Assembly: GCF_018861905.1 (NCBI RefSeq)
Contig: NZ_JAHLDU010000017.1
Coordinates: 1-64,000 of the forward strand
Length of the DNA: 64,000 nt
Reading direction: 5' to 3'
Source: Clostridium sp. DSM 17811
Lineage (GTDB): Bacteria; Bacillota; Clostridia; Clostridiales; Clostridiaceae
A model generated the notes under the pieces. It was not told where the DNA came from and ran no database searches. It saw only the letters and a list, made by a program, of their open reading frames with translations. Numbering within the stretch: the stretch's first letter is position 1; the number at the start of each line of letters is the position of its first letter. A program made the translations under genes and the position numbers. Positions 33,549 to 45,651 of this stretch are shown here, one piece after another.

Positions 33549-33627
33549 TTAGAACGTTGGAATTATTATAAAAAAAGTTGATATTTTTTCTTTAAAGTAG
33601 ACAGAGTAAATAATAAAAATCTTAGAG

Positions 33628-33669
33628 AAATAGGGTCAGTGGATAAATATATCTGCTTGCCCTATTTTT
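33628..33669 (+). terminator. Probable terminator after the 99-aa gene
   Basis: An 8-bp outer stem (33628-33635 with 33660-33667) ending in TTTTTG, with a short CAG/CTG inner pairing. Sequence from 33670 to 33985 is AT-rich and shows no gene. Confidence 0.6.
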
Positions 33670-33987
33670 GTGATTTTAGATTTAGCTATTTAGTTTCAAT
33701 TATTCATTAGTTAACATTATTTTGGTTTTCACTTTTGTGATTTAGTACCATTCGCGATGCAAATGGAATTTGTTGTAATTAGTGATTATGTTGTAGATAC
33801 ATCTAAACCAGTCAACAGGCTTATTTGGCGTAGTAATTAAAGTTTTATTATCTTGAACTTTATTATTTAAAACTGTAATATATCTTAGAAAATTGAATAA
33901 AGTGGTATCATAAGAAATTTTAGGAGGTTGGAGTGTAAATAATATAATTAAGTTAGAAACAAAATTAAAATAAAATTTAATAATTTA

Positions 33988-34165
33988 ACATAAATAGAGG
34001 TGCAGATAAAGGGGTAGTTTTTGAATGTTAAGGATAAGAACATCCAATGTCAAAAATGAAGGATTTGTTTGCCGAAAGGATATTTTGGTTCTTTAAAATA
34101 TTCTTGGCGATAGAGAACAGTATTTCTATCACTGTCATGAAGTTCTTATGGAGAGCTATTTATGT
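33988..34165 (+). promoter_or_regulatory. Lysine riboswitch (L box) upstream of the lysine fermentation operon
   Basis: The leader carries the conserved blocks of the lysine aptamer in order: AGAGGTGC (33996-34003), TTTGCCGAAAGG (about 34068-34079), CTTGGC (34103-34108), CACTGTCATGAAG (about 34130-34142) and TGGAGAGCTAT (about 34149-34159). P1 is a perfect 10-bp helix between 33988-33997 and 34156-34165. Internal hairpins are visible at about 34076-34105 and at 34108-34130 (GATAGAGAA with TTTCTATC). The P1 3' strand overlaps an alternative 12-bp helix (34162-34173 with 34180-34191), and a further hairpin (34190-34197 with 34208-34215) leads to a terminator. Whether lysine switches expression on or off cannot be settled by eye. 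Confidence 0.9.
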
Positions 34166-34216
34166 AATGGAAAGTTAATTTTTCATTGCATTAATAGGTT
34201 TTTGTTTCTATTAATT

Positions 34217-34244
34217 AAGGCACTGAAAATTCAGTGCCTTTTTC
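34217..34244 (+). terminator. Terminator between the lysine riboswitch and kal
   Basis: A 10-bp perfect stem (34217-34226 with 34231-34240), loop AAAT, followed by TTTCT. It lies 65 bases before the first gene of the lysine operon, so it is the likely expression-platform terminator. Confidence 0.85.
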
Positions 34245-34308
34245 TGTGTTCACAATAGAATCAACCTAGGATTGCAAATTAGACACTATGATTAAAAAGG
34301 AGGATAAA

Positions 34309-34689
34309 ATGAAATCTTTAATTAGACTAAGAATGAGTGCTCATGATGCACATTATGGTGGAAATTTAGTGGATGGAGCAAGAATGCTTCAATTATTCGG
34401 GGATGTGGCTACAGAACTTCTAATTCTAAATGATGGTGATGAAGGATTATTCAAAGCCTATGATGCTGTAGAGTTCTTAGCACCAGTTTATGCGGGAGAT
34501 TATATAGAAGCGGTTGGAGAAATAGTGAGTGTAGGGAATTCTTCAAGAAAAATGATTTTTGAGGCAAGGAAAATTATAGTGCCAAGACCAGATATAAATG
34601 ATTCAGCTTGTGACGTATTAGATGAACCAATAGTTGTTTGCAAGGCAAGTGGGACTTGTGTAGTTCTAAAAGATAAACAAAGAAAATAG
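34309..34689 (+). CDS. kal: 3-aminobutyryl-CoA ammonia-lyase
   Basis: A 126-residue hot-dog-fold enzyme that removes ammonia from L-3-aminobutyryl-CoA to give crotonyl-CoA in lysine fermentation. ATG 34309 is used because AAAGGAGG lies 4-11 bases before it; an upstream ATG at 34288 precedes that site. The sequence begins [23 protein letters not shown], which is characteristic of Kal, with AHDAHYGG at about 10-17, and [18 protein letters not shown] in the central strand region. It is the first gene of the operon, directly behind the riboswitch and terminator. kce follows after 21 bases. Confidence 0.9.
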
Positions 34690-34710: not shown

Positions 34711-35532
34711 ATGGAAAAATTAATAATTACTGCAGCTATATGCGGAGCGGAAGTTACAAAAGAACATAATTTAAATGTGCCTTATACTGTTCTTGAAATA
34801 GCAATGGAAGCTGAAAAAGCATATAAAGCAGGAGCTAGCATTATTCATTTGCATGTAAGGAAAGATGATGGAACACCTACTCAAGACTTAATAAGATTCG
34901 AGGCATGCATGGAAGCTATAAAAGAAAGGTGCCCAGATGTAATCATTCAACCGTCAACCGGTGGAGCGGTAGGGATGAGTAACGCAGAAAGATTACAACC
35001 TATAAATCTTAGACCAGAAATGGCAACTTTAGATGCAGGAACTTGTAATTTTGGTGGAGATGACATATTTGTAAATACTGAAAATACAATTAAAGAATTT
35101 GGAGAAAGGATGATTGAATCCGGCGTAAAACCGGAAATTGAAGTTTTTGATAAGGGAATGGTAGACATGGCTATAAGACTTCAAAAGAAAGGTTTTATAA
35201 AAACACCAATGCATTTTAATTTTGTTATGGGTGTAAATGGTGGGATTAATGCATCACCAAGAGATCTAGTATTTATGCAAGAAAGTATACCAGTGGGAAG
35301 TACTTTCACAGTATCAGGAATTGGGAAATATGAGTTTCAAATGGTAGCTATGGCCATTATTATGGGTGGGCATGTAAGAGTTGGATTTGAAGATAATGTA
35401 TATATTGAAAAGGGTATCCCGGCTAAATCAAATGCAGAATTAGTAGAAAGAGTAGTTAGAATTGCGAAGGATCTTAGTAGAGAAATTGCAACTCCACATG
35501 AAGCAAGAAAAATATTAGGTTTATTACCTTAA
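34711..35532 (+). CDS. kce: 3-keto-5-aminohexanoate cleavage enzyme
   Basis: A 273-residue BKACE-family zinc enzyme that condenses 3-keto-5-aminohexanoate with acetyl-CoA to give acetoacetate and 3-aminobutyryl-CoA. Zinc ligands His46 and His48 are in HLHVR, catalytic-site Glu14 is in CGAEV, and the third zinc ligand Glu lies near 230 in VRVGFEDN. Length and residues agree with the characterised Kce. A helical TIM-barrel pattern runs throughout. RBS AAGGAGG. Confidence 0.93.
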   Translation: MEKLIITAAICGAEVTKEHNLNVPYTVLEIAMEAEKAYKAGASIIHLHVRKDDGTPTQDLIRFEACMEAIKERCPDVIIQPSTGGAVGMSNAERLQPINLRPEMATLDAGTCNFGGDDIFVNTENTIKEFGERMIESGVKPEIEVFDKGMVDMAIRLQKKGFIKTPMHFNFVMGVNGGINASPRDLVFMQESIPVGSTFTVSGIGKYEFQMVAMAIIMGGHVRVGFEDNVYIEKGIPAKSNAELVERVVRIAKDLSREIATPHEARKILGLLP

Positions 35533-35598: not shown

Positions 35599-36252
35599 GT
35601 GAATAAAGTTGTAGAGTTAGAACAAATTAGACCTCTACTTAAAGACGGAATGTCAATAATGATAGGAGGATTTCTAGCCTGTGGAACACCAGAAAAGATT
35701 ATAGATTTATTAGTAGAAACAAATATTAAAAATTTAACTATAATTGCAAATGATACAAGTTATGTAGATAGAGGTATAGGAAAACTTATAGTAAATGGTC
35801 AAGTTAAAAGACTTGTAGCTTCTCATATAGGAACAAATGCAGAAACAGGGAGGCTTATGACAGAGGAAAAAATAGAAGTAGAACTTGTGCCACAAGGAAC
35901 GCTAATTGAAAGAATAAGAGCAGCTGGAGCTGGACTTGGTGGAGTGCTTACGCCAACTGGAGTTGGTACTATGATAGAAGAAGGAAAACAAAAACTTACA
36001 ATAGAAGGAAAAAAATATTTGTTAGAGACTCCAATTAAAGCAGATTTAGCACTTGTTTATGCAAGTGTGGTAGATGAAATTGGCAATGCAATTTATTATG
36101 GAACAACAAAAAACTTTAATCCCATTATAGCTACTGCTGCAGAAATTGTAATAATTGAAGCTAAAAAGATTGTTAAAGTTGGGGATCTTGATCCAAACAA
36201 TATTGTTACTCCATGCGTACTGGTTGATTATATTATTAGGGAGGATAACTAA
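35599..36252 (+). CDS. atoD: Acetoacetate:butyrate CoA-transferase subunit A
   Basis: A 217-residue CoA-transferase family I alpha subunit, GTG start with an AGGAGG site. The MIGGF(x)ACGTPE block near 21-31 and [10 protein letters not shown] near 116-125 are typical. With AtoA it moves CoA from butyryl-CoA to the acetoacetate made by Kce, so acetoacetyl-CoA can enter the butyrate pathway. The stop codon is one base before the AtoA start, so the two are translationally coupled. Confidence 0.9.
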
Positions 36253-36253
36253 T

Positions 36254-36913
36254 ATGGGTATAGATAGTAAACTTGCAAAACAAATTATTGCAAAAAGAAT
36301 TGCAAAAGAATTTAAAAATGGCCAACTTGTTAATTTGGGTATAGGGCTCCCAACATTAGTTACAAAATATATTCCCGAAGGTGTACATGTTACTCTCCAA
36401 TCGGAAAATGGAATGATTGGAATGGGAACGGCCCCAGTAGAAGAAAACAACGATGTAATTAATGCAGGAGGTCAATTTACTTCAATAATTCCCGGTGGGG
36501 CATTCTTTGATACTGCAATGTCTTTTACTTTAATAAGAGGCGGACATGTTGATATAACTGTCCTTGGAGCATTAGAAGTAGATCAAGAAGGTAACTTAGC
36601 TAATTGGATTGTGCCGGGCAAAATGGTTCCTGGTATGGGTGGCGCTATGGATTTAGTAGTAGGAGCTAAAAAGGTTATTATTGCAATGCAACATACAGCT
36701 AAAGGAATTCCTAAAATACTAAAGATGTGTACATTACCGTTAACAGCAAAAGCACAAGTTAACCTAATAGTTACAGAACTTGGAGTAATGGAAGTTACGG
36801 ATAAAGGTCTTGTACTTATTGAAATTCATAAAGATACAACAGTTGAAGAAGTTAAATCACTTACTGAGGCTGAATTGATTATATCAGAGAACTTGAAAAT
36901 AATGGATATATAA
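36254..36913 (+). CDS. atoA: Acetoacetate:butyrate CoA-transferase subunit B
   Basis: A 219-residue CoA-transferase beta subunit. ATG 36254 follows GGGAGG and gives the normal family length; a longer in-frame extension into atoD has no ribosome binding site. The catalytic Glu51 lies in the signature [18 protein letters not shown] at 28-36 and [15 protein letters not shown] at about 95-110 are also family blocks. Partner of the atoD product. Confidence 0.92.
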
Positions 36914-36928
36914 AGGGGGGAATTGATT

Positions 36929-37966
36929 ATGGAAAAAGGATGTAAATACGGAACACACAGGGTAATTCAACCAATAGGTGTTATGCCACAGCCAGCAGCA
37001 AAAATCTCAAATGATATGAATATATACGATAATGAAATTTTAATAGATGTTCATGCTTTAAATATAGATTCAGCTAGCTTTACCCAAATAGATGAAGAAG
37101 CTGGACATGACATCGAAAAAATAAAAGCTAAAATCATTGAGATTGTTGCAGAAAGAGGAAAGATGCAAAATCCAGTAACTGGATCAGGTGGAATGCTTAT
37201 TGGAACAGTCGAAAAAATAGGTGAAGCATTAGATGGAAAAATAGATCTTAAAGTTGGAGACAAAATATCCACATTAGTTTCATTATCGTTAACTCCTTTA
37301 AAAATAGATGAAATTATAGATATTAAACCGGACATAGATAGAGTTGTGATAAAAGGAAAAGCTATTTTGTTTGAAAGTGGATTATATGCAAAACTTCCAA
37401 AAGATATGGATGAAAATTTAGCATTAGCAGCATTAGACGTTGCAGGGGCAGCAGCTCAAGTTGCCAAACTTGTTAAACCAGGTCAATCAGTTCTTTTACT
37501 TGGTGCTGCAGGTAAATCGGGAATGCTTTGCTCTTATGAAGCGGTTAAGAGGGTAGGACCAACAGGAAATGTTATTGGACTTGTAAGAAACGAGGAAGAA
37601 AAAACGAGATTGAAAAGACTTGGTTTAAAAATGAAAATAGTTATTTGTGATGCTAGAGCTGCTATTGATGTAATGAATGCTACTCTGGAGTGCAACAATG
37701 GGTGTGAAGTGGATGTTGCAATCAATATGGTAAACGTTTCCGATACTGAAATGTCAACAATACTGCCTGTAAAAGATGGCGGAGTAGTTTACTTCTTCTC
37801 TATGTCTACAAGCTTTACAAAAGCAGCACTTGGAGCTGAAGGAGTAGGTAAAGACATTACCATGATTGTAGGAAATGGATACACTAAAGGACATGCTGAA
37901 ATAACGCTTGAAGAGTTAAGGGAAAATGAGACATTAAGAGGAATATTCGAAGAATTATATGTTTAG
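36929..37966 (+). CDS. kdd: L-erythro-3,5-diaminohexanoate dehydrogenase
   Basis: A 345-residue NAD(P)-dependent dehydrogenase that oxidatively deaminates 3,5-diaminohexanoate to 3-keto-5-aminohexanoate. ATG 36929 lies about 10 bases after a GGGGGG site; an in-frame TTG two codons upstream is less well spaced. The N-terminal domain opens MEKGCKYGTHRVIQP, as in other Kdd proteins. The Rossmann fold shows LLGAAGKSGML at about 190-200. It sits between the CoA-transferase and kamA, as in other lysine-fermenting clusters. Confidence 0.92.
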   Translation: MEKGCKYGTHRVIQPIGVMPQPAAKISNDMNIYDNEILIDVHALNIDSASFTQIDEEAGHDIEKIKAKIIEIVAERGKMQNPVTGSGGMLIGTVEKIGEALDGKIDLKVGDKISTLVSLSLTPLKIDEIIDIKPDIDRVVIKGKAILFESGLYAKLPKDMDENLALAALDVAGAAAQVAKLVKPGQSVLLLGAAGKSGMLCSYEAVKRVGPTGNVIGLVRNEEEKTRLKRLGLKMKIVICDARAAIDVMNATLECNNGCEVDVAINMVNVSDTEMSTILPVKDGGVVYFFSMSTSFTKAALGAEGVGKDITMIVGNGYTKGHAEITLEELRENETLRGIFEELYV

Positions 37967-38001: not shown

Positions 38002-39255
38002 ATGAGGGTTAATAGAAGAGTCGAACTATTTAAAGATGTAACAGATGAGCAGTGGAACGATTGGAAATGGCAAGTTAAAAATAGAATTGAGACTGTGGAT
38101 GAACTTAAAAAATATATACCACTAACAGAAGATGAGGAAGAAGGAGCAAGGAAATGTTTACAAACATTAAGAATGGCAATAACTCCTTACTATCTTTCTT
38201 TAATAGATATAAATGATCCAAATGATCCAATAAGAAAACAGGCTATACCAACAGCACTTGAATTACACAAGGCGCACGCTGATTTACTTGACCCACTACA
38301 TGAAGATACGGATTCTCCAGTGCCGGGGCTTACTCATAGGTACCCAGATAGAGTATTACTATTAATAACTGATCAGTGTTCCATGTATTGCAGGCACTGT
38401 ACAAGAAGAAGATTCGCAGGGCATAGCGATAGTGATCTGCCAATGGCAAGAATAGATAAAGCAATCGAATATATCAGAAATACGGTGCAAGTAAGAGACG
38501 TATTATTATCAGGTGGAGATTGCCTACTTGTTGATGATGACAAATTAGAATATATAATCGAAAGATTAAGAGATATACCCCATGTTGAAATAATAAGACT
38601 GGGTTCAAGAGTACCTGTAGTTCTTCCACAAAGAATTACGCCAAAATTAGTTAATATGTTAAAGAAATATCACCCAATTTGGTTAAATACTCATTTTAAT
38701 CATCCAAATGAAATTACGCAGGAAGCAAAAATTGCTTGCGAAAGGCTTGCAAATGCAGGAATACCTCTTGGAAATCAATCAGTACTTTTAAGAGGGGTTA
38801 ACGACTGTACGCATGTAATGATGGATTTAGTTCATGAGCTTGTCAAAATTAGGGTTCGCCCATATTATATTTATCAATGCGACCTTTCAATGGGGCTTGA
38901 GCACTTTAGAACACCAGTATCTAAAGGAATAGAAATTATTGAAGCTTTAAGAGGGCATACTTCAGGGTTCTGTGTGCCAACATTTGTTGTTGATGCTCCA
39001 GGCGGAGGTGGGAAAACTCCGGTGATGCCAAACTATGTTATATCTCAAAGTCCTGAAAAAGTAGTACTCAGAAACTTTGAGGGTGTTATAACTACTTATG
39101 AACAACCAACTAGCTATACTTCAGGTTGCCATTGTGAAGTATGCGAAGGAGTCAAAAAGGTTCACAAAGTGGGAGTAGCTGGATTATTAAATAATCAACA
39201 AATGTCAATGGAACCAGTTGGACTTGAGAGAAATTTAAGAGGACATCACGAGTAA
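38002..39255 (+). CDS. kamA: L-lysine 2,3-aminomutase (radical SAM, PLP)
   Basis: A 417-residue radical-SAM enzyme converting L-lysine to L-beta-lysine, the first step of the pathway. The 4Fe-4S/SAM cysteines are Cys126, Cys130 and Cys133 (CSMYCRHC). The PLP lysine is Lys338 in GGGKTP. The structural zinc site of the clostridial enzyme is present (Cys269, Cys376, Cys378, Cys381), each shifted by one from the C. subterminale numbering. The zinc tail and lengths distinguish it from EF-P lysyltransferase-associated EpmB. RBS GGAGGGG. Confidence 0.96.
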   Translation: MRVNRRVELFKDVTDEQWNDWKWQVKNRIETVDELKKYIPLTEDEEEGARKCLQTLRMAITPYYLSLIDINDPNDPIRKQAIPTALELHKAHADLLDPLHEDTDSPVPGLTHRYPDRVLLLITDQCSMYCRHCTRRRFAGHSDSDLPMARIDKAIEYIRNTVQVRDVLLSGGDCLLVDDDKLEYIIERLRDIPHVEIIRLGSRVPVVLPQRITPKLVNMLKKYHPIWLNTHFNHPNEITQEAKIACERLANAGIPLGNQSVLLRGVNDCTHVMMDLVHELVKIRVRPYYIYQCDLSMGLEHFRTPVSKGIEIIEALRGHTSGFCVPTFVVDAPGGGGKTPVMPNYVISQSPEKVVLRNFEGVITTYEQPTSYTSGCHCEVCEGVKKVHKVGVAGLLNNQQMSMEPVGLERNLRGHHE

Positions 39256-39256
39256 A

Positions 39257-40300
39257 ATGGAAGATATAAAAAATATAAGCAGCATTTTCAATATGATTCG
39301 CGATTATGAAAGCATTTCTATAATAGGGATGGATAAAAATGTAGGGAAAACAACTACTCTAAATCATATTTTAAGAGAAGCTAGAGGGAGAATATCCCTT
39401 GGGCTTACATCTATAGGACGTGACGGTGAAAAAACAGATAGAGTAACTGGAACCGAAAAACCTAAAATTTATATAGAAAAAGGAAGTATAATTGCGACAG
39501 CAAAACAGTGTTTATTAAATAGTGATATAACTCGCGAGATTTTAAAAACAACTGGGTTTAATACTCCTATGGGAGAAATAATTATATGCAGAGCAATAAG
39601 TGATGGATATGTGGATTTAGGTGGTACTTCTATAAATTCTTATATGACTTTAATATGCAATGAACTTAAAAGCTTTGGAAGTAAGCTTGTAATTGTGGAT
39701 GGTGCTTTTAGTAGAAAAACTTTTGCATCACCATCAATTACTAATGCTACAATTTTATCAACTGGAGCAGCAATGTCAAAAAGTATGGTAAAGGTAATAG
39801 ACGCAACCTGTCATATAGTGAATTTATTATCATTAGAGAGTGAAAAAGATATGGAAGTATTAAAGAGTGCGAAGGAAATTTTATGCAAAGGCAAAATAGG
39901 TATTATTGACAGAGATAATGCTATAAGGATGTTAGCTGTGATTACATCAATTGGAGCATCTAAAGAGATTGCGCAGTTATTAGACAAAAATACAACACAT
40001 GTTGTTATCAAAGGTGTAGTAACAGACAAACTATTAGAAGAAATTATGACATCCACGAACAACTATAAGGGAGTAACTTTCCTAGTTGAAGACGGAACAA
40101 AGTTGTTTTTAACTAGGGAAACTCTTTATAAATTTAAAAATAGAGGTGGAATCATAAAAACAATAAAATCTATTAATATAGTATGTGTTACATCCAATCC
40201 AAAATCACCTTATGGGTATGAATTTGATAGAAATAAGTTTTTACATGAGCTTCGCAATAAATTAAATATACCTGTATTTGATGTAGTTGGAGGGGAGTAA
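39257..40300 (+). CDS. kamB: KamB-like P-loop protein of the aminomutase cluster
   Basis: A 347-residue protein with a Walker A motif GMDKNVGKTTT at 24-34 and no membrane segment. Similar genes sit beside B12-dependent lysine and ornithine aminomutases in other anaerobes, and their function is not established. The start lies one base after the kamA stop, with only a weak ribosome binding site, so it is translationally coupled. With the MutS-like KamC that follows, it may repair or reload the adenosylcobalamin enzyme KamDE; that is inference. Confidence 0.78.
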   Translation: MEDIKNISSIFNMIRDYESISIIGMDKNVGKTTTLNHILREARGRISLGLTSIGRDGEKTDRVTGTEKPKIYIEKGSIIATAKQCLLNSDITREILKTTGFNTPMGEIIICRAISDGYVDLGGTSINSYMTLICNELKSFGSKLVIVDGAFSRKTFASPSITNATILSTGAAMSKSMVKVIDATCHIVNLLSLESEKDMEVLKSAKEILCKGKIGIIDRDNAIRMLAVITSIGASKEIAQLLDKNTTHVVIKGVVTDKLLEEIMTSTNNYKGVTFLVEDGTKLFLTRETLYKFKNRGGIIKTIKSINIVCVTSNPKSPYGYEFDRNKFLHELRNKLNIPVFDVVGGE

Positions 40301-40301
40301 A

Positions 40302-41771
40302 ATGAAGTTTTTAGATAAGCAGCAGAGAGATCAAATTGGCTTTTCCTTCGTTATGGATAAGCTGGGGATAATCACTTCTTATGGACTTTGTGAGAGCAAA
40401 AATATTAGGCCATTTAAAACCTGCGAAATAAATAAATTAACAAAGGAGTTAAATAACCTAGAAAATATAATTAAATCCATAAAAACTAATACTTATGAGT
40501 ATAACAAAATAGGTAGAATATTTTGCATTATGAAAGATATTAGAAATTCTATTAAAAGATGTAATGAGGCTGAATCATTAGATGAAGTTGAGTTATATGA
40601 AATTAAATATTTTTCAATATTAGTAACAGAATTAAAAAATATCCTGGATAAATTACATCTTAATATAGATGAAATTCATTTGAATTCTCTAGATGAAATT
40701 ATTTATCTTCTAGATCCACAAAAAAATGGAATATCTACCTTTTATGTTTATGATGAGTATTCTGAAACTTTGAAATATACTCGCAAAAAGAAAAGACAAA
40801 AGGAAAAAGAAATTTTTATGGCGATAACCGAAGAGGAAATAAGTGAATTAAGAAAACAAAGATTAGATTTAGTTATAGAAGAAGAAGAGGAAGAATTAAG
40901 GATTAGAAAAGAGTTAACACTTCAAATTTCTAAAAAAACAGAAATTATAAACCAAAATATAAAAGCAATAGGAAGATTAGACTTTTTAATTGCTAAAGCA
41001 AATTTAGCATTATCTTATAATGCTTCTCGACCAAAAATTTCTGAGAAGATGGAAATTGAATTTATTGAAGCCTTTAATCCTGAAATCAAAGAGATATTAG
41101 AAAAAGGTAAGAAGGCATTTACCCCAGTTAGTTTAAGCTTGTCTAGAGGTACGACTATTATAACAGGGGCGAATATGGGTGGGAAAAGTGTGACCCTAAA
41201 GACTATTGTTTTGAATTTACTTCTTGGGCAAATGGGCTTTTTCGTATTCGCTAAAAAATCAAAATTCCCAATCCTTAATTTTATTCATTTTGTATCCGAT
41301 GATATGCAATCCATTTCCAAAGGGTTAAGTACATTTGGAGCAGAAATAATAAAGCTAAAAGAAGTGGTAGAGTGTGCAGCGAGAGAAAATGGATTTGTAG
41401 CTTTAGATGAGTTTGCAAGGGGCACTAACCCAAAAGAAGGTTATTATCTTGTGAGAGCCCTTTCAAAATATTTGAATAAATTTGAGTCAATAAGCTTAAT
41501 CTCAACTCATTATGACGGAGTGGTGAAAGATAATATGGTGCATTATCAAGTAACTGGGCTCAAAAATGTAGATTTAAATGCCCTAAAAAATGAGATAAAT
41601 CTAAATAAAACTCAATCTGTTGAAATAATACAAGAACATATGGAGTATAAACTAGAAAAAGTCTCAAAAGAAAATAGAGTACCAAAAGATGCACTTAATA
41701 TAGCAATATTACTAGGCCTTGATGAAGAGATAGTAAGTATAGCAAAAAGTTTCTATAAAGAGGAGGAGTAA
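40302..41771 (+). CDS. kamC: KamC: MutS-like ATPase of the aminomutase cluster
   Basis: A 489-residue protein using ATG 40302 behind GGAGGGGAG, one base after the kamB stop. Residues 170-240 form a coiled coil rich in Glu and Lys. Residues 280-450 are a MutS-type ABC ATPase: Walker A GANMGGKS (289-296), the ST-motif region FVSDDMQSISKGLSTFGAE (330-348) and Walker B VALDEFARGTNP (366-377). The mismatch-recognition and connector domains of MutS are absent, so DNA mismatch repair is unlikely. Location between kamB and kamDE suggests a chaperone-like role for the aminomutase. Confidence 0.82.
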   Translation: MKFLDKQQRDQIGFSFVMDKLGIITSYGLCESKNIRPFKTCEINKLTKELNNLENIIKSIKTNTYEYNKIGRIFCIMKDIRNSIKRCNEAESLDEVELYEIKYFSILVTELKNILDKLHLNIDEIHLNSLDEIIYLLDPQKNGISTFYVYDEYSETLKYTRKKKRQKEKEIFMAITEEEISELRKQRLDLVIEEEEEELRIRKELTLQISKKTEIINQNIKAIGRLDFLIAKANLALSYNASRPKISEKMEIEFIEAFNPEIKEILEKGKKAFTPVSLSLSRGTTIITGANMGGKSVTLKTIVLNLLLGQMGFFVFAKKSKFPILNFIHFVSDDMQSISKGLSTFGAEIIKLKEVVECAARENGFVALDEFARGTNPKEGYYLVRALSKYLNKFESISLISTHYDGVVKDNMVHYQVTGLKNVDLNALKNEINLNKTQSVEIIQEHMEYKLEKVSKENRVPKDALNIAILLGLDEEIVSIAKSFYKEEE

Positions 41772-41772
41772 A

Positions 41773-43329
41773 ATGGAAAGCAAATTGAATTTAAATTGGG
41801 ATCTCGTTGAAAAAGCTAGACAATCAGCTAAAAACATAGCAAAAGATACTCAAGAATTTATTGACATGCATACTACAGTAACAGTAGAAAGAACAGTATG
41901 TAGACTTTTAGGTATTGATGGTGTAGATGAAGCTTTCGTGCCAATTCCCAATATTGTGGTAGACAACATTAAAGATGGTAATGGATTAGCACTTGGTGCC
42001 GCAATGTTTATCGGAAATGCTATGGTTGAAACTGGACTTTCACCACAAGAAATATCAGTAAAAGTATCAAAGGGTGAAATAGATTTAACTAAAATACCTA
42101 TGCACGAAGAATTTGAGATCAAAACGGCTGTTGGTAAAGTGGCTAAAGCAATGACTTTCAAAATCAAACAAAACAGAGATAAGAGGGAATCATATCTTGA
42201 AAGATTTGGCGATAAAAGTAGTCCTTATCTTTATGTAATAGTTGCTACAGGTAATATTTATGAAGATATAATCCAGGCAAGAGCAGCGGCAAAACAAGGT
42301 GCAGATATAATTGCAGTAATAAGAAGTACAGGGCAAAGTTTATTTGACTATGTTCCATATGGGGCTACAACGGAAGGTTTCGGAGGAACACTTGCAACTC
42401 AAGAGAATTTTAGACTTATGAGGACTGCACTTGATGAGGTGGGAGAAGAATTAGGAAGATATATTAGAATTTGCAATTATTGTTCTGGTTTATGTATGCC
42501 TGAAATAGCTGCGATGGGAGCAATAGAAAGGTTAGACGTAATGCTAAATGACGCACTATATGGAATTCTGTTCAGAGATATTAATATGCAAAGAACGATA
42601 GTTGACCAGTATTTTTCAAGAATAATTAATGGATATGCTGGAGTTATCATAAACACTGGGGAAGATAATTATTTAACTACATCAGATGCAGTAGAAGAGG
42701 CTCATACAGTGCTTGCATCACAATTTATAAATGAACAATTTGCATTAGTTGCTGGAATACCAGAAGAACAAATGGGACTTGGGCATGCATTCGAAATAAG
42801 CCCAGATGTTGAAAATGGATTTGTATATGAATTAGCACAAGCACAAATGGCGAGAGAAATCTTCCCGAGAGCACCACTTAAATATATGCCACCAACTAAG
42901 TTCATGACTGGAAATATATTTAAAGGACAAGTGCAAGATGCATTATTCAACATGGTTACTATTATGACAGGACAAAAATTACATCTTCTTGGAATGCTGA
43001 CAGAAGCAATCCACACTCCATTTATGTCAGATAGAGCGTTATCAATAGACAATGCTCAATATGTATTTAGGACTATGAAGGATTTAGGATCAGAAATTAC
43101 CTTTAAAAAAGGAGGCATAATGGAAACAAGAGTGGATGAGGTATTAAACAAAGCAGCAGATCTAATTGGAGAGATTGAAAAAGAAGGCTTATTTAGCACA
43201 TTGCAACAAGGAAAATTTGCCGGAATTAAGAGGCCACTAAATGGTGGAAAGGGACTTGCAGGAGTTGTAGAAAAAGAAAAAGCTTACTTTAATCCATTTG
43301 TAGATCTAATGTTAGGGGGGAAGAAGTAA
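41773..43329 (+). CDS. kamD: Lysine 5,6-aminomutase alpha (large, KamD) subunit
   Basis: A 518-residue TIM-barrel subunit of the adenosylcobalamin- and PLP-dependent lysine 5,6-aminomutase, which moves the terminal amino group of beta-lysine to C5. Length and segments such as TGNIYEDIIQARAAAKQGAD (about 157-176) and YSGLCMPEIA-like NYCSGLCMPEIA (about 236-247) match the family. The stop overlaps the kamE start by one base, so the subunits are coupled. RBS AGGAGGAG. Confidence 0.93.
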   Translation: MESKLNLNWDLVEKARQSAKNIAKDTQEFIDMHTTVTVERTVCRLLGIDGVDEAFVPIPNIVVDNIKDGNGLALGAAMFIGNAMVETGLSPQEISVKVSKGEIDLTKIPMHEEFEIKTAVGKVAKAMTFKIKQNRDKRESYLERFGDKSSPYLYVIVATGNIYEDIIQARAAAKQGADIIAVIRSTGQSLFDYVPYGATTEGFGGTLATQENFRLMRTALDEVGEELGRYIRICNYCSGLCMPEIAAMGAIERLDVMLNDALYGILFRDINMQRTIVDQYFSRIINGYAGVIINTGEDNYLTTSDAVEEAHTVLASQFINEQFALVAGIPEEQMGLGHAFEISPDVENGFVYELAQAQMAREIFPRAPLKYMPPTKFMTGNIFKGQVQDALFNMVTIMTGQKLHLLGMLTEAIHTPFMSDRALSIDNAQYVFRTMKDLGSEITFKKGGIMETRVDEVLNKAADLIGEIEKEGLFSTLQQGKFAGIKRPLNGGKGLAGVVEKEKAYFNPFVDLMLGGKK

Positions 43330-44117
43330 TGAGTGGAGGACAATATTCATTAGAGGTTAAAGAATTCAATAAAAACTTAGACCTAACAAAGCTTAAACCT
43401 TATGGAGATACTATGAATGATGGTAAGGTTCAAGTGAGTTTTACTCTTCCTGTAGAAAATAATGAAAGAGGAGTGGAAGCTGCAATTCAACTTGCAAAAT
43501 CTATGGGCCTTGTTGATACAAACTGTGCTCATCATGAAGCTTTAGATAAAGAATTTTCTTTTTATGTTATTTATGGTTCATTAATGCATACTGTAAACTA
43601 TGAAGATGTACATGTTCAAACAGTAGAAGTAGAAATAATGGATATGAAACAAGTTGGAGAATATATAAAAGAAAATATTAAACGTGAAGTTGTAATAATT
43701 GGAGCTAGTACAGGAACAGACGCCCATACAGTTGGAATAGATGCCGTAATGAATATGAAGGGATTTGCAGGACATTATGGTCTTGAAAGGTATCCTATGA
43801 TAGAAGCTTATAATTTAGGAAGCCAAGTAGAAAATGAAGAATTTATTAAAAAAGCTATAGAGCTTAAAGCGGATGTTCTTCTGGTTTCTCAAACAGTAAC
43901 CCAAAAGGATATACACATAAAAAACCTTACTAATTTAGTGGAACTATTAGAAGCAGAAGGGATTAGAGATAAAGTTGTGTTAATTTGTGGGGGCCCAAGA
44001 ATAACTCACGAACTTGCAAAAGAACTTGGGTACGATGCAGGTTTTGGACCAGGTAAATTCGCTGGTGACGTAGCAAGTTTTGCTATCACAGAAATGGTTG
44101 AGAGAGGTTTAGTTTAG
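43329..44117 (+). CDS. kamE: Lysine 5,6-aminomutase beta (B12-binding, KamE) subunit
   Basis: A 262-residue small subunit with the base-off cobalamin motif DAHTVG at 131-136 (His133 as cobalt ligand) and the PLP lysine Lys144, both at the same positions as in the structurally known enzyme. The Rossmann-like B12 domain runs from about 118 to the C-terminus, with LICGGPRITHELAKELG near 220-236. It needs KamD for activity. Confidence 0.95.
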   Translation: MSGGQYSLEVKEFNKNLDLTKLKPYGDTMNDGKVQVSFTLPVENNERGVEAAIQLAKSMGLVDTNCAHHEALDKEFSFYVIYGSLMHTVNYEDVHVQTVEVEIMDMKQVGEYIKENIKREVVIIGASTGTDAHTVGIDAVMNMKGFAGHYGLERYPMIEAYNLGSQVENEEFIKKAIELKADVLLVSQTVTQKDIHIKNLTNLVELLEAEGIRDKVVLICGGPRITHELAKELGYDAGFGPGKFAGDVASFAITEMVERGLV

Positions 44118-44193: not shown

Positions 44194-45651
44194 ATGGGTG
44201 AAGTAAAAACAGGTGAATTGAAAAGAGGATTAAAGCCGCGTCATCTTCAAATGATTGCTATTGGTGGAGCAATAGGAACAGGTCTATTTTTAGCCTCAGG
44301 CGGTACAGTGCAACAAGCAGGTCCAGGAGGAGCATTAGTTGCATATACACTTATAGGTGTAATGGTATATTTCTTAATGACAAGTTTAGGGGAAATGGCT
44401 ACATTCATGCCAGTTACTGGTTCATTTGAAACATATGCATCAAGATTTGTTGATCCAGCATTTGGATTTGCGCTAGGTTGGAACTATTGGTACAACTGGG
44501 CAATTACTGTTGCAGTTGAAATGGTTGCAGGAGCTATGATTATGCAATATTGGTTTCCTGGTGTACCCGCACTTGTTTGGAGTGTTGGTTTTCTAGTATT
44601 ACTATTTGGTTTAAATATGCTTTCTGCTAAGGCTTATGGAGAGTCAGAATTTTGGTTTGCAAGCATTAAAGTTGTAGCAGTTCTAGTGTTCCTAGCAATA
44701 GGTGTTGCAATGATCTTTGGAATAATTGGCGATCATCATATTGGACTTTCAAATTTTACATTTTTAGATCCTAAAAGTGGTGCTAAAGGACCATTCCCAT
44801 TTGGGTTTAAAGGAATATTAATGGTTTTTTTAATTGCTGGATTCTCTTTTCAGGGAACAGAACTCGTTGGTATAGCTGCTGGAGAAAGTGAAAATCCAGA
44901 GAAAAATGTACCTAAAGCAATTAAAAGCGTATTTTGGAGAATTATTATATTCTATTTAGGAGCTATATTTATTATCAGTGCATTGATACCGTTTACTCAA
45001 GCTGGCGTGACCACAAGTTCTTTCACCGTTATTTTTGAAAGGGCAGGTATTGCAGGAGCTGCAAGTATTATGAATGCTGTAGTTTTAACATCAGTTCTTT
45101 CATGTGGTAACTCTGGAATGTATGCGGCTAGTCGTATGTTATATGCAATGGCGAAAGAAGGAAGGGCACCAAAGTCTCTTTGTAAAGTAAATTCGAGAGG
45201 GGTTCCTGTAAATGCATTAGTAATTACTACATTAGTAGCCTCGGCGTCTTTCTTAGTAGGTTTATATGCACAAGAAACAGTGTATATGTGGTTAGTTGCA
45301 GCTTCGGGCTTAGCTGGATTTATAGCATGGGTAGGAATTGCAATATGCCACTATCGTTTCCGTAAAGCATTTGTGGCTCAAGGAAAAGATTTGGCTAAAT
45401 TAAAATATAAGGCAAAATTATTTCCTTTTGGGCCAATTCTTGCACTAGTATTATGTGTAATTGTTATATTAGGGCAGGGAATAACCTATTTCACAGCGGA
45501 TTCAATTGATTGGAAAAATATAATTGCTTCGTATATTGGACTACCTTTATTCTTACTTTTATGGCTAGTATATAAGGTAAAGAATAAAACAAAGATTGTT
45601 AATCTAAAAGAAATTGATTTTAGTACGAAGCACATTCATGATGAAAAATAA
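44194..45651 (+). CDS. lysP: Amino acid permease, lysine-specific type
   Basis: A 485-residue APC-superfamily permease with about 12 membrane helices. The first helix has IAIGGAIGTGLFLASGG (22-38), and FQGTELVGIAAGESENPEKNVP near 220-241 is typical of the LysP/YifK branch of the amino acid transporter family. It follows kamE by 76 bases with an AAGGGGG site, so lysine import is built into the fermentation operon. Specificity for lysine rests on family resemblance and operon context. Confidence 0.88.
   Translation: MGEVKTGELKRGLKPRHLQMIAIGGAIGTGLFLASGGTVQQAGPGGALVAYTLIGVMVYFLMTSLGEMATFMPVTGSFETYASRFVDPAFGFALGWNYWYNWAITVAVEMVAGAMIMQYWFPGVPALVWSVGFLVLLFGLNMLSAKAYGESEFWFASIKVVAVLVFLAIGVAMIFGIIGDHHIGLSNFTFLDPKSGAKGPFPFGFKGILMVFLIAGFSFQGTELVGIAAGESENPEKNVPKAIKSVFWRIIIFYLGAIFIISALIPFTQAGVTTSSFTVIFERAGIAGAASIMNAVVLTSVLSCGNSGMYAASRMLYAMAKEGRAPKSLCKVNSRGVPVNALVITTLVASASFLVGLYAQETVYMWLVAASGLAGFIAWVGIAICHYRFRKAFVAQGKDLAKLKYKAKLFPFGPILALVLCVIVILGQGITYFTADSIDWKNIIASYIGLPLFLLLWLVYKVKNKTKIVNLKEIDFSTKHIHDEK

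Follow-up and report, generated by a model that had tools for sequence, protein, structure and literature searches.

A lysine riboswitch that may switch on a lysine-fermentation operon of Clostridium sp. DSM 17811 through a predicted relay of four helices

The stretch of DNA analysed here (the window, 64,000 nucleotides of Clostridium sp. DSM 17811) carries, on the forward strand, an operon with the gene order kal, kce, two CoA-transferase subunits, kdd, kamA, two accessory ORFs, kamD, kamE and an amino-acid permease. The genes are assigned as kal (3-aminobutyryl-CoA ammonia lyase, 34309-34689; NF052388, 195.6 bits against a cut-off of 160), kce (3-keto-5-aminohexanoate cleavage enzyme, 34711-35532; NF052387, 454.6 bits, cut-off 382), the atoDA-like CoA-transferase subunits A and B (35599-36913; NF007394 and TIGR02428, both above their cut-offs), kdd (3,5-diaminohexanoate dehydrogenase, 36923-37966; NF052381, 270.3 bits, cut-off 200), kamA (lysine 2,3-aminomutase, 38002-39255; TIGR03820, 630.7 bits, cut-off 525.4) and kamD-kamE (lysine 5,6-aminomutase alpha and beta, 41773-44117; NF052384, 926.5 bits, cut-off 600, and NF052385, 401.5 bits, cut-off 280). 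Kal, Kce, Kdd, KamA and KamDE thus all score above the NCBIfam cut-offs, in agreement with the original prediction that the regulated genes break lysine down. The two accessory ORFs lie between kamA and kamD (39257-41771); the second contains a MutS domain V, and the first (39257-40300) has no Pfam match at an E value of 0.001. The best NCBIfam models for the last gene (44194-45651) are amino-acid permeases with scores below their cut-offs, and its probable role is lysine uptake. A Shine-Dalgarno sequence of kal, AAGGAGG, is read directly at 34297-34303. A sigma-70 scan of 33550-34320 yielded no promoter on the forward strand, and a search for sigma-54-like patterns returned nothing near the leader.

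The RNA in front of kal is, as judged from its sequence, a lysine riboswitch. The Rfam lysine family RF00168 matches positions 33987-34166 of the forward strand over its full length (model positions 1-182) with 80.5 bits and an E value of 2e-19 (gathering cut-off 30), and it is the only Rfam family above the gathering threshold in the 64-kb window. The core blocks AGAGGUGC, GCCGAA, CUGUCA and GGAGNGCUA are present together with P1, both by direct reading and in the covariance model. The 5' strand of P1 (33988-33997) is a perfect complement of its 3' strand (34156-34165), so that the perfect 10-bp P1 and the complete set of conserved blocks noticed by eye in the original prediction, which had called for this covariance search, both stand. 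The hexamer AAGAAC in loop L2 (34036-34041, forward strand) is complementary to GUUCUU in loop L3 (34088-34093), which we take to be the putative kissing loop expected of lysine aptamers. Lysine is the presumed ligand of this RNA. A genome search revealed one further lysine riboswitch in the same genome, upstream of a gene that we label aspartokinase from its start motif.

Downstream of the aptamer, the 3' strand of P1 is common to two helices. In RNAfold, positions 34156-34197 form a single hairpin of 17 pairs with one U-U mismatch (-15.5 kcal/mol), hereafter anti-P1, which is the predicted lysine-free state; the U-rich segment GUUUUUGUUU, interrupted by a G, follows directly at 34198-34207. 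An intrinsic terminator (34217-34240; a 10-bp stem with a loop of 4, leading into a U tract) is supported by folding and is the sole site that a terminator scan finds between 33550 and 34320, where shuffled sequences give a mean of 0.1. A helix competing for the P1 3' strand and a terminator before kal had both been anticipated, and both are recovered; the further statement that neither visible alternative helix clearly disrupts the terminator does not hold, because a second-layer helix, 34180-34198/34207-34229, can do so. The 5' strand of this antiterminator (34180-34198) is the 3' arm of anti-P1, and its 3' strand (34207-34229) overlaps the 5' arm of the terminator; both were obtained by folding, that of the 5' strand with the P1 3' strand removed, and by comparison of leaders. 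The predicted pairs are 34180-34185/34224-34229, 34187-34189/34220-34222 and 34190-34198/34207-34215. The ligand-free platform (34156-34230) folds to anti-P1 at -17.3 kcal/mol in all, and the full unliganded leader folds as anti-P1 with a separate terminator, which is an OFF state. Taking away the P1 3' strand, which bound lysine would do, and ending the transcript ahead of the terminator 3' arm (34166-34230) shifts the minimum to the antiterminator, at -12.7 kcal/mol.

Leaders of related loci were collected with a covariance model trained on 35 aptamers, which was used for the counts of kal-linked aptamers because pattern searches missed aptamers. The model finds 43 aptamers at 60 loci of the family that carry kal or a kal-like gene, and 44 at 80 named public kal loci, 42 of them before kal; 38 of these 80 loci have none in the DNA searched. 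By record titles, the 42 include Clostridium, Dethiosulfatibacter, Peptostreptococcaceae, Lachnospiraceae, Oscillospiraceae, Fusobacterium and Propionigenium. The resulting 85 kal-linked aptamers (43 plus 42, with the two after kal excluded) were reduced to 68 leaders by removing 17 from genomes present in both collections, matched by hand. In 11 of the 85, no motif marked the start of kal, and it was placed 250 nt after the aptamer; these aptamers lie upstream of the kal match by coordinates. Selection by two motifs, one in the anti-P1 3' arm and one in the terminator, gives 37 of the 68 leaders (the relay set), and four further leaders (L064, L068, L157 and L158) have the arm motif and no such terminator. 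For the alignment, the window replaced its own copy, L039, and the leader L026, which precedes a LysE-family gene, was added, giving 38 rows, 37 of them distinct. As a separate observation, L078 (6409-6584) and L081 (6444-6620) have, besides the aptamer before kal, a second complete one that starts 31 and 66 nt, respectively, past the end of the kal match.

The least conditioned test of the second-layer helix imposes no sequence rule on the terminator. The anti-P1 arm motif UUCAUU[GA]C occurs in 41 kal leaders, and in 35 of them an energy and U-tract rule finds a terminator; the six others are L064, L068, L157 and L158, plus L156 and L066 of the relay set. In 34 of the 35 leaders, 7 of the 8 motif positions pair with the 5' arm of this terminator, and in the remaining one 6 do so. 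The mean fit is 6.97, compared with 5.35 for shuffled arms, and p is at most 0.05 for 15 of the 35 leaders taken singly.

In the 38 aligned leaders, all but one of the 259 antiterminator cells are paired (258, or 99.6%), compared with 20.5-47.1% in slid registers, a figure that is partly achieved by construction, because the alignment was selected by motifs on both antiterminator strands. The anti-P1 cells are paired in 94.2% of cases over the 37 distinct rows (slid registers, 37.7-50.8%), and the terminator cells in 95.7%, with six terminator pairs changed on both sides across leaders; the aligned leaders are related, and their rows are therefore not independent. Only one antiterminator pair is doubly changed, from G-C to A-U in L053, L056 and L058 (by eye), which is the level of shuffles (243 of 500). 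Three of the remaining pairs are invariant, and three vary to U-G only, apart from one U-U cell. With the doubly changed count at the shuffle level, the case for the relay rests on register-specific complementarity and not on many compensations.

Folding of the individual leaders gives a graded picture. When the stretch that begins with the anti-P1 3' arm and ends with the terminator 5' arm is folded by itself, it adopts the antiterminator in 34 of 38 leaders, with at least 5 of 7 pairs, and the other four keep 4. This fold is better than that of shuffled segments at p<0.05 in 24 of 38; for the window, z is -3.1 and p is 0.015, and the weakest leader is L055 (z 0.16). Blocking of the P1 strand raises antiterminator occupancy in all 38 leaders (medians 0.000 free and 0.445 blocked), with values above 0.5 in only 17 and near zero in L060 and L154; in L150, occupancy is high in both states. 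When the terminator 5' arm and the start of its loop are shuffled, the mean occupancy falls from 0.487 to 0.164, and 35 of 38 leaders lie above the null mean, 14 of them singly at p<0.05 at 37 C. For the window, the occupancy of 0.355 is equalled by shuffled arms in 18% of draws (p 0.18). Folding was repeated at 10 C because some relatives are presumably cold-loving; at this temperature the antiterminator is weaker (0.267), and seven of 38 leaders exceed the null at p<0.05. According to these models, the antiterminator is energetically marginal in the window taken alone.

Pairing of the terminator 5' arm with anything upstream was also compared with the P1 strand free and blocked. It is higher with the strand free in 8 of 34 leaders, equal in one and lower in 25; the values for the window are 0.24 free and 0.41 blocked. 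A coupling-energy score, defined by the terminator gain with and without the P1 strand, was dropped as non-discriminating: among the 34 relay leaders with an identified main terminator it is negative (ON-like) in 30, and it is negative too in all four transporter leaders, which were intended to be OFF controls, and in the single lysC leader scored.

By computation, the window contains the aptamer and four helices (P1, anti-P1, antiterminator and terminator) that are conserved in the relatives and mutually exclusive. The reading that we favour, with a probability of roughly 70%, is that lysine switches the lysine-fermentation operon ON through a relay of these helices. When lysine is absent, the 3' strand of P1 would fold forward into anti-P1 (34156-34197), locking up 34180-34197, so that the terminator (34217-34240) could form and transcription would stop. 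When lysine is bound, P1 would retain its own 3' strand and leave 34180-34198 free to pair with 34207-34229; the resulting antiterminator would hold the 5' arm of the terminator and allow readthrough into kal. Activation by lysine had been argued originally from physiology, and the anatomy of the leader and the comparison of leaders point in the same direction, from which we infer that the switch would be ON in the cell.

In the finished transcript with the P1 strand removed, the terminator still wins over the antiterminator (-25.3 versus -12.7 kcal/mol), and readthrough must therefore be kinetic. The antiterminator would form while the polymerase sits between about 34216 and 34230, and would need to persist only until the polymerase exits the U tract. 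The computed barrier of direct refolding from antiterminator to terminator is 7.8 kcal/mol, which is borderline. The bulge 34216-34219, free in the antiterminator, matches the part of the terminator made last, which should slow invasion. It is plausible in these models that the antiterminator survives long enough; prefix folds and the leader comparison support a ligand-bound fold that would oppose the terminator, and the full transcript favours the terminator. Additionally, the anti-P1 hairpin with the GUUUUUGUUU that trails it could, as modelled, act as a first terminator in the window.

The arrangement is different in the other 31 kal leaders, which are not part of the relay set. In 26 of them (L092 being doubtful), the P1 3' strand forms a hairpin with a U tract behind it; these look, from their sequences, like simple ON switches, in which the P1 3' strand itself would be the 5' arm of the terminator. 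Of the remaining five, L103 and L089 are similar by eye, and L078, L088 and L121 are not clearly so. A hairpin of -12 kcal/mol or lower on the P1 3' strand occurs in 66 of the 68 kal leaders, and 13 of 21 controls reach this value as well, so that the difference between kal leaders and controls lies in where the hairpin ends and not in its strength.

All 17 genomes of the genus that were searched carry lysine riboswitches, 37 in total, and the first downstream ORF, assigned by eye for 33 of them, is kal in 11 cases, lysC in 16, a transporter gene in four, dapA in one and a LysE-family gene in one. In 12 of the 16 lysC leaders and in the dapA leader, the best hairpin of the P1 3' strand runs into the terminator by eye, an arrangement that, on the folding model, is the classical antiterminator of an OFF design; it was not seen by eye in L005, L006, L007, L016 and the four transporter leaders. 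The LysE-family case is L026 (1501-2417), from a relative within the genus, in which a lysine riboswitch with the relay platform precedes a gene that is LysE by Pfam (87.7 bits against 25.6), the NCBIfam exporter models scoring below their cut-offs; one would expect this gene to be lysine-induced as well. Another relative of the genus, L035, contains tandem lysine aptamers on the minus strand (588-755 and 848-1019).

These leaders bear on three other explanations of the window. In one, the switch is also ON, and the regulated terminator is the anti-P1 hairpin with its own U tract, the GUUUUUGUUU that follows 34197, the downstream hairpin serving as a backup. The U tract after the anti-P1 hairpin is scored as a terminator in L039 (the copy of the window), L040, L041 and L067, and the 26 of 31 non-relay leaders are built in this manner. 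However, such direct-terminator scoring is confined to these 4 of the 37 relay leaders, at least five U in six positions follow the hairpin in only 4 of 37 (L055, L059, L065 and L149), and the window copy has four U in six, its tract being interrupted by a G. Conservation also extends to the second terminator and to the match between its 5' arm and the anti-P1 3' arm, and we regard this explanation as unlikely. A constant attenuator, with the riboswitch acting otherwise, for example on mRNA decay or translation, would be consistent with the much greater stability of the terminator over the antiterminator in the full transcript. It provides no reason, however, for the fit of the terminator 5' arm to the anti-P1 arm, which reaches 7 of 8 positions in all but one of 35 leaders, and the Shine-Dalgarno sequence of kal lies outside the switch helices, so that translational action would need an unseen element; this explanation appears highly improbable.

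The third explanation is an OFF switch as for lysine synthesis genes, in which lysine would cause termination before kal. This is the usual behaviour of lysine riboswitches and the design seen in the folding of the 12 lysC leaders of the genus, and the 8 of 34 relay leaders in which the terminator 5' arm is somewhat more paired with the P1 strand free would agree with it. Such a switch needs the terminator to be sequestered without lysine, whereas the lysine-free occupancy of the antiterminator does not exceed 0.2 in 37 of 38 leaders, the value for the window being 0.000; the lysine-free fold consists of anti-P1 and the terminator, which is not that of an OFF-type lysC L-box. Pairing between the P1 3' zone and the terminator is weak (-3.5 kcal/mol in the window, median -3.85 in the 38 leaders, compared with -6.0 to -10.6 in the 21 controls), a contrast that is itself weak because 20 of the 21 controls fail to beat shuffles. 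An OFF switch would also shut down lysine breakdown when lysine is plentiful, and we consider it very unlikely. The relay, with lysine as the inducer, remains the preferred reading.

A further feature of the non-relay kal leaders is a second 3' half of the aptamer (P5 3' strand, J5/1 and P1 3' strand) after the first terminator, which is found in 13 of the 31 (L078, L081, L083, L085, L086, L089, L095, L096, L100, L103, L115, L119 and L124), as picked by eye from a motif listing. By rule, a second terminator that uses the second 3' half is present in 11 of the 13, the exceptions being L078 and L081. The second P5 3' strand fits the P5 5' strand of its own leader with a mean of -6.3 kcal/mol, compared with -4.5 kcal/mol for those of other leaders, a value reached by 43 of 20000 permutations and by 38 of 20000 with one leader per near-identical group. 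For the first copy, the values are -7.3 for its own and -4.5 for the others, a result matched by 3 of 20000 permutations. The second P1 3' strand has kept 4 to 7 bp of complementarity to the P1 5' strand. These sequences suggest that, in the relatives, one 5' half is served by two exchangeable 3' halves; the doubling is absent from the window.

A broader view, which we hold only tentatively and think more doubtful than not, is that kal riboswitches are single-aptamer, two-gate ON switches that check for lysine twice in succession. The first check in the window would be made at the anti-P1 hairpin and the U tract behind it, the second at the terminator controlled by the relay, and one bound lysine would open both gates. 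In the 13 relatives, the single 5' half could close first with one 3' half and then with the other, and so be read twice.

The lysC L-box of the B. subtilis type is an OFF switch whose antiterminator includes the P1 3' strand. The aptamer class and the use of the P1 3' strand as the switching strand are common to that system and the window; however, this strand joins the antiterminator in the lysC L-box, whereas in the window it is predicted to block it. Among systems closer to the window in logic, lysine riboswitches before kal/kce have been described in Clostridium sticklandii, Fusobacterium nucleatum and Thermoanaerobacter, with positive control proposed (Mukherjee 2017, PMC5584792), which bears out the original mention of comparative proposals of this kind, at least in the section of that paper considered here. 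The leaders named there have in common with the window the aptamer class, the regulated kal gene and the proposed positive control; that section gives no mechanism, whereas the present analysis puts forward an antiterminator relay and follows it in 37 kal leaders. For glycine, adenine and some lysine aptamers, ON riboswitches are known in which a portion of the terminator is buried, according to the part of the review considered (Barrick and Breaker 2007, PMC2258182). In these, as proposed for the window, the ligand relieves termination, and the 26 of 31 other kal leaders look alike; the window type differs from the ON type described in that part in an extra anti-P1/antiterminator layer between aptamer and terminator, and would still be ON. 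A literature search with partial journal coverage returned no description of the relay or of the doubled 3' half. The kal-linked lysine riboswitches and their positive logic are thus already in print, and the arrangement has so far been only partly described.

Positive control of lysine breakdown by lysine riboswitches has been stated on comparative grounds (PMC5584792, in the section considered), and the window leader and its aligned relatives name exact helices. The relay suggests how one aptamer may keep its ON logic after an antiterminator layer has been added, and the relay leaders are a possible source of lysine-inducible parts. The doubled 3' halves of the relatives suggest that a second check may have been gained without a second full aptamer.
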